Assembly (NCBI GenBank): GCA_000830175.1
Contig: JQIS01000001.1
Location: 1-35,471 of the forward strand
DNA from: Sulfurovum sp. FS08-3
Lineage (GTDB): Bacteria; Campylobacterota; Campylobacteria; Campylobacterales; Sulfurovaceae
DNA length: 35,471 nucleotides
Reading direction: 5' to 3'
Numbering within the stretch: the first letter of the stretch is position 1; each line of letters starts with the position of its first letter. Of the stretch, positions 1,606 to 12,471 are shown piece after piece. The position numbers and the translations under genes are program-made. Under the pieces are notes generated by a model. The model was not told the DNA's origin and searched no databases. It saw only the letters and a program-made list of their open reading frames with translations.

Positions 1606-2421
1606 CTACTCTTTGGCAATAAGTTCGACCGTAAAAATATAAGGCTCGACATTGGTATGTCTATCCAATCCAATGTTTTGAAGTTGCTCTAGGTAGGCAA
1701 TGATAGCTTCATTGTACTCTGAATTAGCATCATAACGAACGATTTGAAAACGAAAATCACCATTTGGATAGATGGTAAGCTTAACATCAACTTGACAACC
1801 TACATATTGCTCCTCCATAGGAATAGCATTCTCAAGCTGAGATGTTATTTTAGCAATATAAGCATCGCTTACCCCTTTGGCACCATCGCTTTTGTTTTGG
1901 GCAGGTTTTTCACTCGTTTGAATGATATTCTTTTTCTCTTTGGGCTTAGTTGTCTCAATATCACTAAAGAGATCATCGACACTCTGCTTTTTGACCTCTT
2001 TTTTAGGCTGCGGTGTTGGTTTGGGCGTTGGCTTAGGTATTGGCTTCTCTATGGGCTTGGGCTTTTCAATGGGTTTTGGCACAGGTTTAGGTGTTGGCTT
2101 AGGTTTTTCAACAGGCTTTGGCTTTGGCTTCTCAATGGGTTTGGGTTTTTCAACAGGCTTTGGCTTTGGCTTCTCAATGGGTTTGGGTTTGGGTTTTTCA
2201 ACAGGCTTTGGTTTGGGTTTTTCAATGGGTTTAGCAAGTGGCTCTGATTTGTTTTGTGCTGTTTTGGGTTGTGTTGCAAGAGCTACCGATACCCCTTTGT
2301 CACCTGACACAAGATATTTTTTTGTGTTGTAATCTTGCAGATAGAGATACAAAAGAGTAAGCAGTGCGATATAAAATCCCACCGATAAAACACCGCCTAA
2401 TACAAAAAATTTATCTTTCAT
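1606..2421 (-). CDS. TonB/TolA-type energy transducer with Pro/Lys-rich spacer
   Basis: Periplasm-spanning protein that would transmit proton-motive force from the TolQ/TolR-type motor encoded just upstream to the outer membrane. It has one N-terminal membrane anchor (about residues 6-28, [20 protein letters not shown]), a long spacer (about 55-140) made of KP, EKPKP and IEKP repeats, and a C-terminal TonB/TolA-like domain (about 190-270) with the pattern [14 protein letters not shown]...[10 protein letters not shown] chose the ATG at 2421, with AAGAAG a few bases upstream; a TTG two codons earlier (2427) is possible. In C. jejuni the corresponding gene is followed by tolB and pal. Here the next gene is dnaX on the opposite strand, so tolB-pal lies elsewhere or is lost. 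Whether it is functionally TonB or TolA cannot be decided from sequence alone. Confidence 0.85.
2104..2187. repeat. 42-bp tandem repeat in the TonB/TolA spacer
   Basis: Two exact copies of a 42-bp unit lie at 2104-2145 and 2146-2187, and degenerate partial copies continue from about 2030 to 2235. The unit encodes 14 residues of the EKPKPKP type, so copy-number changes keep the reading frame and alter only the length of the periplasmic spacer. Confidence 0.85.
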
Positions 2422-2503
2422 CTTCAATCTTCTTTTTGCTTAAGCTTCGCCCTTGAAAAGAGAAAGCCTCATAATCGTTTGTGTTGTTTATCAAATATTT
2501 CAT
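2411..2503 (-). CDS. Small ORF (30 aa) between tolR and the TonB/TolA gene
   Basis: An ATG at 2503 overlaps the tolR stop codon (ATGA), and the frame runs 30 codons to a TAA at 2411-2413, just inside the start of the TonB/TolA gene. It therefore fills exactly what would otherwise be a 78-nt gap in a tightly packed operon. The product starts [14 protein letters not shown] and ends KKKIEDER: mixed polar N-terminal half, basic then acidic C-terminus, no membrane segment and no cysteine. I recognise no family. Coupling to tolR and overlap with the next gene argue for translation, but at 30 codons chance is possible. It might alternatively act as a coupling leader that carries ribosomes to the next start. 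Confidence 0.5.
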
Positions 2504-2889
2504 TGGGTTATTAGCGATACTTTTGAAAAGCCCTGTTTTTTAATCTCTGACAACACCTCAATAACCTGACCATAGTCAATCCCTTCATCAGCAGCAATAG
2601 ATATGAACGTATCTTTTTTATACTCACCGCTCTTAAGTACAAAGTGATTGGCAAAATCTTCAAAAGTTGAAAATTTTTCACTGTTGAGATAGACACTGCC
2701 CTCTTTTGTGATTTTAATATCAAGGGGTTTGGCTTTGGATATTTGAGTCGATTGCGATCCTTTGGGCAACTCAATCTTCTCTTCAAAATGAATAGAAGGA
2801 GCTGTAATCATTAAGATTGCCATTAACACCAACATGACATCCACAAGGGGAGTAATATTTAAATCCGGGCTATCATCCCAATCAAACAT
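2500..2889 (-). CDS. tolR: ExbD/TolR-family proton-motive-force transducer subunit
   Basis: Inner-membrane partner of the ExbB/TolQ channel subunit encoded immediately upstream. The 129-aa protein has the ExbD/TolR layout: a short cytoplasmic N-terminus, one membrane helix with the conserved acidic residue (SPDLNITPLVDVMLVLMAI, Asp in PLVDVML at about residue 17), and a periplasmic domain of about 95 residues. ATG follows the tolQ stop directly with no gap. The family usually runs 130-145 aa. ExbD and TolR are hard to tell apart by sequence. The context (ATP synthase, then Q-R-TonB/TolA) matches C. jejuni exbB2-exbD2, so either name could be used. Confidence 0.88.
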   Translation of the reverse strand: MFDWDDSPDLNITPLVDVMLVLMAILMITAPSIHFEEKIELPKGSQSTQISKAKPLDIKITKEGSVYLNSEKFSTFEDFANHFVLKSGEYKKDTFISIAADEGIDYGQVIEVLSEIKKQGFSKVSLITQ

Positions 2890-3459
2890 CTAGGCTTCAC
2901 CATTATGCGAAAGTATCACTTCGACTTGCGATTTGAGTATAGAATTGAGTTCATAGGCTTTGCGTTTCATAAGCAAATGGAAACTGTAGGCAAAAATAGC
3001 CACAAATATCCCAGCTGCCGTAGCCACCAATGCCTCGCTAATCGCAGGTGCAATCACGCCCAAAGAAGAGCTACCTTTGCCAAGCTTTGCAAATGTCTCC
3101 AATATCCCAATCACTGTACCAAAAAGACCAATAAAAGGCGATGTTGAAGCAATAATAGAGAGCATCGTAAGACCTTTGGTTGCATTGCGTACCGTATCGC
3201 TAATGGCAGCTTCCAAGATAGCACGATTGGCAACTACACTTCGATGAAGATACTTATAAAGAAGTGATTGGTTGGATGCGGTAGTAGATTTACCCAAATA
3301 GATAGTGTCCAATGATTTTTTTTCTATTGCAATATAGTATTTAATAATAGCGTAGCGATAGAAAAATATCCAAAACGTAGCCACAAGATAAACCGAGAGC
3401 AGTAGTAGAACTACTATCGTTATAAAACCACTCTCCGAAAGATAATTCAACAGACTCAA
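2890..3459 (-). CDS. tolQ: ExbB/TolQ-family proton channel protein
   Basis: Inner-membrane ion-channel subunit of the ExbBD/TolQR motor. The 189-aa protein shows the MotA/TolQ/ExbB domain: a first membrane segment at about residues 12-32, then the long conserved core SIIASTSPFIGLFGTVIGIL, and ALVATAAGIFVAIFAYSF as the last segment. The start is a TTG 2 nt after the atpC stop with only a weak purine stretch upstream, so translation probably depends on coupling to atpC; no in-frame ATG precedes it. tolR follows without a gap. It lies in the same apparent operon as the F1 genes, linking two proton-driven systems in one transcript. Confidence 0.9.
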   Translation of the reverse strand: MSLLNYLSESGFITIVVLLLLSVYLVATFWIFFYRYAIIKYYIAIEKKSLDTIYLGKSTTASNQSLLYKYLHRSVVANRAILEAAISDTVRNATKGLTMLSIIASTSPFIGLFGTVIGILETFAKLGKGSSSLGVIAPAISEALVATAAGIFVAIFAYSFHLLMKRKAYELNSILKSQVEVILSHNGEA

Positions 3460-11579: not shown

Positions 11580-12471
11580 TTTTTATCCCCCTGGCCACAC
11601 AATATGCTTTAGCCTCCATGGGCTTTTTGGATTGAGGCTGGAGTTTTTTGATGCGTACCTTTCCTTGCAAACACCCTACAACTACACCCTCTTTATCAAT
11701 GCTTAAAATCTCTCCTTCTTGATGGATACTCTCACTATCCAACAACTCCACCTCAAGAAGTTTAAGTTTCTCTTTCGTAAAAATATTAGGCCACCCCTCA
11801 TAGGCTCTGTATCGATTGTAAAGATCTTTGGCGTCTCTAAAATCAACCTCACCCGCTTCACGTTTAATTTTTTTACACAATGATGCCTCAACATCAAGCT
11901 GCCTAAGTGCTACCAATCCATCAAAACGCTCCAAAACATCCAATGTAAGTTTCGCAGCATCGTAGGTGAGTTGCTCCATTAATCCATTAAGGCACATAGT
12001 AGGAGGAATGTTAAAGTAGCGGTACCCCAAAATATCTCCCGTATCCAACCCTTCATTCATAAGCATAGCACTCACTCCTGTGTAGCTCTCATTTTCCAAT
12101 AAAGCTTGCTGCAAGGGCGAAGCACCACGAAATTTAGGCAATATTGAGGCGTGCAAATTGATACAAGGAGCTATATCTAAAATAGCTTTGGGTAGTATCT
12201 GTCCAAATGCAGCAACGATGATAAAATCAGGCTCTAGCTCACGGAGTCTATCGGTTAGCTCTTGCGATTTTAAGTTGTGAGACTGAAGTACCTCAATGGC
12301 GTGTTGCAGTGCCAACTCCTTGACGGGAGGTGGTGTTAAGAGCATCTTTCTGCCTGCTGGTCGATCAGGCTGAGTTAGAACTAAAACAACCTCATAGCCA
12401 TTGGTTTGAACAATAGCATCCAAAATCTCTTTGGCATAATGAGGCGTTCCCATATAGATAATTTTTTTCAC
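11560..12471 (-). CDS. fmt: Methionyl-tRNA formyltransferase
   Basis: Formylates initiator Met-tRNA using 10-formyl-tetrahydrofolate. The 303-aa protein starts MKKIIYMGTPHYAKEIL, has the folate-binding QPDRPAGRKMLLTPPPVKELA region, the catalytic site CINLHASILPKFRGASPLQQA (Asn-His-Ser/Asp set: N and H in INLHAS) and the downstream conserved Asp in GLDTGDILG. The start is GTG with AGGGG seven bases upstream. Its 3' end overlaps birA by 20 nt. Confidence 0.96.
   Translation of the reverse strand: MKKIIYMGTPHYAKEILDAIVQTNGYEVVLVLTQPDRPAGRKMLLTPPPVKELALQHAIEVLQSHNLKSQELTDRLRELEPDFIIVAAFGQILPKAILDIAPCINLHASILPKFRGASPLQQALLENESYTGVSAMLMNEGLDTGDILGYRYFNIPPTMCLNGLMEQLTYDAAKLTLDVLERFDGLVALRQLDVEASLCKKIKREAGEVDFRDAKDLYNRYRAYEGWPNIFTKEKLKLLEVELLDSESIHQEGEILSIDKEGVVVGCLQGKVRIKKLQPQSKKPMEAKAYCVARGIKSGDCIV

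Follow-up and report, generated by a model that had tools for sequence, protein, structure and literature searches.

The tolR-tolA junction

The window analysed here is a stretch of 35,471 nucleotides from Sulfurovum sp. FS08-3 (genome G000). Its minus strand carries the gene order atpG-atpD-atpC-tolQ-tolR-30-codon ORF-TonB_2-domain gene, where atpG, atpD and atpC are presumptive names read off the sequence. Pfam searches assigned tolQ (3459..2890, minus strand) to the MotA/TolQ/ExbB family (MotA_ExbB, 2.2e-27) and tolR (2889..2500, minus strand), the gene upstream of the ORF, to the ExbD family (ExbD, 1.5e-25). The downstream tolA-like gene (2421..1606, minus strand) encodes proline-lysine repeats and a C-terminal TonB_2 domain (TonB_2, 3.8e-08), with a long Lys-Pro repeat region at 2040-2240. 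Its start is an ATG at 2421, and an alternative TTG at 2427 is possible.

The 30-codon ORF runs from 2503 to 2411 on the minus strand. Its ATG (2503-2501) overlaps the tolR stop TGA (2502-2500) as ATGA, and its 3' end, with the stop TAA at 2413-2411, lies 11 nt inside the TonB_2-domain gene. The initial annotation had read both overlaps correctly, as well as the fact that the ORF spans the largest spacing in this part of the operon, which is 78 nt from the tolR stop to the tolA-like ATG and the widest in atpG-atpD-atpC-tolQ-tolR-tolA. The length of the ORF alone is within chance, as 72 ORFs of at least 25 aa overlap the same 6 kb. The 30-aa peptide matched no Pfam family; it is charged and hydrophilic, and no obvious membrane segment was seen by eye.

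For the same junction in relatives, the 30 best places of a TolR search were read from 120 genomes. An insert of the family described below was found only at L006 (the window), L007 and L008 among these 30 loci, the last two belonging to its closest relatives. Genome G003 has the same insert as the window (87% aa identity), and the junction of G004 holds a longer homologous insert of 38 codons; the lengths differ by a net 36 nt, which is divisible by 3. The genus-mate G001 has no insert (TAAtATG). The other 26 loci mostly have a tolA-like gene that abuts or overlaps tolR; L033 has a longer gap in which the motif is absent, and L023 and L035 have no tolA-like start adjoining tolR. Conservation of the frame in close relatives, a check proposed with the ORF, thus held for G003 and for the homologous insert of G004, and failed in G001 and beyond, where the whole ORF is absent. 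A search of 60 genomes with the peptide gave a good match only in G003 (87%) and a 50% match elsewhere in G004.

Comparison of the insert between G000 and G003 revealed 6 differences in 81 bases, 2 synonymous and 4 nonsynonymous, resulting in pS 0.123 and pN 0.054, with similar values in both other frames; the same comparison of TolR yields pS 0.375 and pN 0.038. As the changes are too few and the other two frames look alike, codon selection on the ORF cannot be shown, and the synonymous-bias check suggested earlier found no clear protein-level constraint.

Structure and distribution of the repeat

Judged from the alignments, the window insert derives from a dispersed repeat some 70-130 bp long, of which it is a degraded copy. 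The second match in G004 is flanked by a fumarate reductase cytochrome-like gene and frdA, starts with ATGA and ends in AAAAGGAGATTAAAAAATG; this full-length copy at the frdC-like/frdA junction is 78% identical in DNA to 2439..2498 of the window (minus strand; E 1.6e-7). Used as a DNA query, it found 19, 17 and 10 matches at E<=1 in G000, G003 and G004, the weakest of which are at chance level, and chance-level matches only in G001 and G002. The copies stand next to genes for a response regulator, an ABC transporter, a gmhB-like protein, a yefM/yoeB-like pair and others.

The unit consists of an optional 5' inverted repeat (SL1), CTCTTGCC-AAA-GGCAAAGC, the core TTTAGTGAGAGGAATT, the SL3 hairpin and AAGGAGA. 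Exact self-inverted repeats of at least 10 nt were found upstream of the core in 23 of 137 copies, compared with 1.7 in controls. The core consensus TTTAGTGAGAGGAATT is the most conserved stretch. In one frame it contains the double stop TAG-TGA, after which comes a Shine-Dalgarno-like GAGAGG; the TAG-TGA frame is closed in all 169 copies examined. SL3 is a hairpin with a variable stem around CTTTG. Eight of its 12 pairs are changed on both sides, 95.8% of the cells pair (74.8% when shuffled), and the covariation is 0.641 against 0.231 for shuffled alignments and 0.238 for the best slide. Four full copies have folding z values of -1.58 to -4.40. The window insert has a z of 0.39 and lacks SL3, the 45 nt of it that match the covariance model R1 being aligned to 68 model positions.

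Tandem arrays of 2-4 units with a spacing of about 74-77 nt were seen at L069:1448-1611, L134:1108-1309 and G184:C1:526775-527063, and tandem units can carry entirely different, perfectly paired SL3 stems. An origin of the SL3 arms from the host sequence, hinted at by L267, did not hold by eye in L036, L105 and L145. At seven loci of family genomes (L089, L099, L100, L104, L110, L150 and L157) the 3' end of the upstream gene, which encodes a peptide like MRAMYENGTI, is found again downstream of the element, and part of this 3' end also stands inverted ahead of the core.

R1 was built from 17 sequences and trained on the genus of the window. It matched 2461..2417 of the window on the minus strand (22.2 bits, E 1.5e-4); a second match at 11707-11782 (E 0.14) is at chance level. 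In a sample of environmental genomes, many of them incomplete, R1 matches were found in 93 of 150 genomes of the family (10 of 11 genera, E<=0.01) and in 75 of 248 genomes of the order (25 of 73 genera, E<=1e-4). A draw of 150 genomes from the phylum gave 15 with matches, all from the same family or order as the window. The core motif occurs in at least 119 stretches; the 80 listed are all from Campylobacterota, and the carriers among the matches listed include Sulfurovum, Sulfurimonas, Sulfurospirillum, Hydrogenimonas and other Campylobacterota, one of them being the cultured Sulfurospirillum arcachonense DSM 9755. Two genomes of another family (f20, g30) have a copy inside the RNase P RNA (Rfam RF00010 match 1363-1768), at L217:1501-1567 and L218:1501-1567, where a variable helix of the ribozyme seems to carry the repeat.

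Placement at translation starts and the reading path

The position relative to genes was measured in two sets that have some genomes in common: one of 113 copies (105 used of 116 matches plus 8 of 13, with weak, N-containing, opposite-strand and partial ones left out) and one of 87 copies on named contigs (87 used of 95 matches). Gene starts were called by simple ORF rules, and short genes such as rpmJ were therefore missed; gene names not tested by Pfam are our assumptions from the N-termini. Of the 113 copies, 64 have a start codon no more than 15 nt after AAGGAGA, and the number rises to 83 at a limit of 30 nt. In the second set, 54 of 87 copies have a same-strand start codon no more than 12 nt beyond AAGGAGA, with a peak at 6-8; the opposite strand gives 2 of 87. 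Of the 82 copies (out of 87) that have an upstream stop on the same strand, 72 have it within 150 nt. Copies inside an ORF of at least 120 codons are few (3/87 same-strand, 10/87 opposite-strand).

Several sites are empty in relatives. The frdC-frdA site is filled in G004 and empty in G000 and G003. A site filled in G026, where the insert has ATGA at both ends and the ORF MKYLSQRRSFSERNLKEALLVLKEKKI, is empty in G065, G112 and G116, where the ATG start directly overlaps the upstream stop; these empty relatives differ within the would-be duplicated region. The insert at L105 is absent in G093, G099 and G032. At the ABC-transporter site, G003 has no core and keeps ATGAAAC, and loss is therefore as possible as gain.

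Counts of direct repeats, inverted repeats and reading frames use copies with flanking sequence, and identical copies were dropped from the score-based direct-repeat and the reading-frame counts. Exact direct repeats of at least 12 nt between the 5' and 3' flanks were found in 15 of 137 copies (1.05 in the control), a count that includes tandem copies. After removal of most of these, a score of at least 12 was reached by 15 of 130 copies, compared with 2.38 in re-paired controls, and there is no excess at weaker scores of at least 8 (55/130 against 48.2). Inverted repeats of at least 10 nt between the two flanks showed no excess (2 against 1.95). The best direct repeats run from the Shine-Dalgarno to ATGAA(A): L267 has AAGGAGACATTAGTATGAAA, perfect over at least 20 bp, followed by L105, L145 and L036. 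The 5' flank of the tol junction has no Shine-Dalgarno, and a duplication there would therefore be ATGAAA at most. Taken together, the empty sites and the flanking direct repeats of some copies, from Shine-Dalgarno to ATGAAA, indicate that the repeat probably inserted at translation starts.

Two further junctions were recorded. At L222 (G003:C43:4000-4900) and L187, the G003 junction holds another insert, a REP/BIME-like GTAGG...CTAC palindrome pair, where G000 (L057) has the repeat. At L066 (G000:C43:61200-64400) a copy lies between genes that we take to be a yefM-like antitoxin and a yoeB-like toxin, and most of the toxin gene is seemingly lost at the orthologous site of G003.

The reading path was followed in 111 copies that have a gene start just after the Shine-Dalgarno. 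An ATG-started ORF in the SFSERN frame is present in 37 and absent in 74 of them; in 31 of the 37 it stops between -8 and +4 nt from the next start, with an exact ATGA in 17. The upstream gene stops within 130 nt in 93 of the 111 copies, and an ATG stands near that stop in 64 of these and in none of the other 29. The ATG nearest to the stop is in the SFSERN frame in 33 copies, in the ALVRGIF frame in 27 and in the frame closed by TAG-TGA in 4, i.e. in open frames in 60 of 64, and 40 of these 64 ORFs end at the next start. With one copy per downstream gene the numbers are 32, 21 and 4 of 57, or 53 of 57 in open frames; the frame bias gives a binomial of 2.6e-6 against a third with copies treated as independent, a value that exaggerates the bias, since the long copies inherited their 5' ATG from a common ancestor. 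Among the 64 coupled copies, 38 have an open SFSERN frame and 50 an open ALVRGIF frame; among the 105 others the numbers are 43 and 65. At L051 (G004) a one-base deletion shifts the frame relative to L043. A conserved peptide SFSERNFQGALLLEKE was considered and dropped, as the second frame, ALVRGIFKELCFLKRR, is used nearly as often. That one repeat yields two unrelated peptides speaks against a function of the peptide and in favour of a property of the reading path. Judged from its boundaries, the small ORF is a product of the insertion: it has its start at the upstream junction and, in most cases, its stop at the following start codon. The coupled reading path that the initial annotation had proposed across the tol junction is thus continuous in sequence, which is probably its key property, and its translation is presumed.

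Interpretation and relation to known systems

The analysis has shown that the DNA is repeated, lies sense-oriented in front of diverse genes with AAGGAGA at the distance of a ribosome-binding site, and carries a covarying hairpin, and that there are empty sites. Based on these features, we consider it very likely that the 30-codon ORF represents, in worn form, a short dispersed Campylobacterota repeat which inserts at translation starts inside operons. We propose that the repeat, probably moved by a trans-acting enzyme, lands on a translation start and duplicates the segment from Shine-Dalgarno to ATGAAA, leaving a start codon upstream and a Shine-Dalgarno with a start codon downstream. The open frame through the repeat would then stop at the next start codon, and a ribosome that has finished tolR could pass along the insert and reach the tolA-like gene. 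With two stop-free frames, a start codon upstream and the Shine-Dalgarno and start downstream, a coupled operon can keep working, and the repeat may spread or persist because the operon stays coupled, the peptide being a by-product. In the lineage of the window the copy has lost SL3 and kept a frame ending just after the tolA-like ATG. Several observations count against this explanation: the copy in the window is much decayed (22 bits; z of folding 0.39), the 5' flank of the tol junction has no Shine-Dalgarno, clear flanking direct repeats are found in a minority of copies, the empty relatives of the G026 site differ in the region in question, loss is as possible as gain at the ABC-transporter site, 29 of 93 copies have no ATG near the upstream stop, and the frame is shifted in L051.

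The initial annotation had thought of a small accessory protein of a membrane motor. As a rival explanation, this would be a genuine component of the Tol motor, made from the ORF and working alongside TolQ and TolR. The frame is indeed open in G000, G003 and the homologous insert of G004, where the length differs by a multiple of 3. However, we regard such a protein as most improbable, since the ORF is missing at the same junction in G001 and nearly all other loci of the family that were read, the hydrophilic peptide has neither a Pfam match nor an obvious membrane segment, no codon signature was found, and one element read in two frames gives different peptides. Homologous inserts also stand in front of many unrelated genes, such as those for fumarate reductase, a response regulator and an ABC transporter. 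With the insert family at 3 of 30 loci, an accessory role in Tol-Pal conserved at this locus was rejected. Short ORFs are abundant and the window insert folds no better than shuffles, as expected for a chance ORF in a neutral spacer; this reading has almost no probability left, because the insert is homologous to a multi-copy structured repeat, by its match to R1 and by that to the copy in a relative.

The strong covariation of the structure, the Shine-Dalgarno inside the conserved unit and its stable placement before starts would also suit a cis-regulatory RNA, i.e. a translational leader with a regulon, recognised for example by an RNA-binding protein on the GGA motifs flanking the hairpin (CsrA being our presumed candidate) and spread by duplication because it is regulatory. 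Some junctions are occupied in more than one genome, such as those at purH, purQ, hslV and murI, gene starts which we presume to have recognised correctly. We find this rather unlikely, as the downstream genes are diverse, presence varies between close relatives, tandem arrays occur, one copy lies inside the RNase P RNA, and the window copy has kept its frame without the hairpin. A palindrome of the REP/BIME type, moved by a RAYT (tyrosine) transposase, would likewise be short, palindromic, dispersed and found in tandem; Sulfurovum sp. NBC37-1 is reported to have repeats of the GTAG and CGTC kinds (PMC3733652), and the G003 junction described above holds a GTAG-type pair where G000 has the repeat. 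The strict sense orientation before start codons, the bridging ORF and a consensus lacking any GTAG or CGTC tag next to its palindrome make this very unlikely, and identity with the GTAG/CGTC REPs was rejected.

In an extension of this explanation, which we hold to be improbable, the insertion machinery might recognise the translation initiation region itself, the right boundary being the Shine-Dalgarno and the left boundary following ATGAA(A) at any spacing. Target choice might then depend on initiating ribosomes or cleaved mRNA and involve an RNA or single-stranded intermediate, and the repeat would be a SINE-like bacterial element that duplicates a start signal into a bridging cistron. Many tiny ORFs between coupled Campylobacterota genes may be explained as products of one repeat family, and the filled and empty operon junctions offer a natural series for repeat movement and for the insert tolerance of termination-reinitiation.

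In a limited search of the open-licence PMC literature, no paper describing the repeat was found. Known RNA families share its RNA-type structure, and none matched above the Rfam gathering threshold in the 10 loci tested (E up to 1); TeloSII_ncR30 matched below threshold (E 0.05, L043, opposite strand), and the RNase P match is the host gene of an inserted copy. Similar to REP/BIME elements of the GTAG/CGTC type, the repeat is palindromic, dispersed and intergenic, whereas it has no tag tetranucleotide, is sense-oriented at start codons and carries a bridging ORF. Rickettsia palindromic elements are also short palindromic mobile repeats compatible with translation, and according to a review (PMC10969869) they are inserted in frame within genes and encode a conserved peptide; the present repeats lie between genes and use more than one frame. 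With two frames and 3 of 87 copies inside a same-strand ORF of at least 120 codons, assignment to these elements was rejected.

The closest likeness is to the MIRUs of mycobacteria, which, as a 2025 review (PMC12548453) describes them after Supply et al. 1997, appear mobile, insert at start codons and have an internal ORF coupled at -4 nt. The Campylobacterota repeats are likewise short and dispersed at intercistronic sites, stand at start codons in an orientation fixed to the gene (54/87 against 2/87) and contain an ORF that is joined to the following gene by ATGA, exact in 17 of 37 ORFs. They differ in their phylum, all 80 listed core motifs of at least 119 being from Campylobacterota, in the covarying hairpin, AAGGAGA and the two frames used, and in a flanking direct repeat that can span Shine-Dalgarno to ATGAAA. 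By the description of MIRUs, the repeats look to work in the same way in another phylum, and repeats that target start codons while preserving coupling thus seem to exist far outside the mycobacteria.
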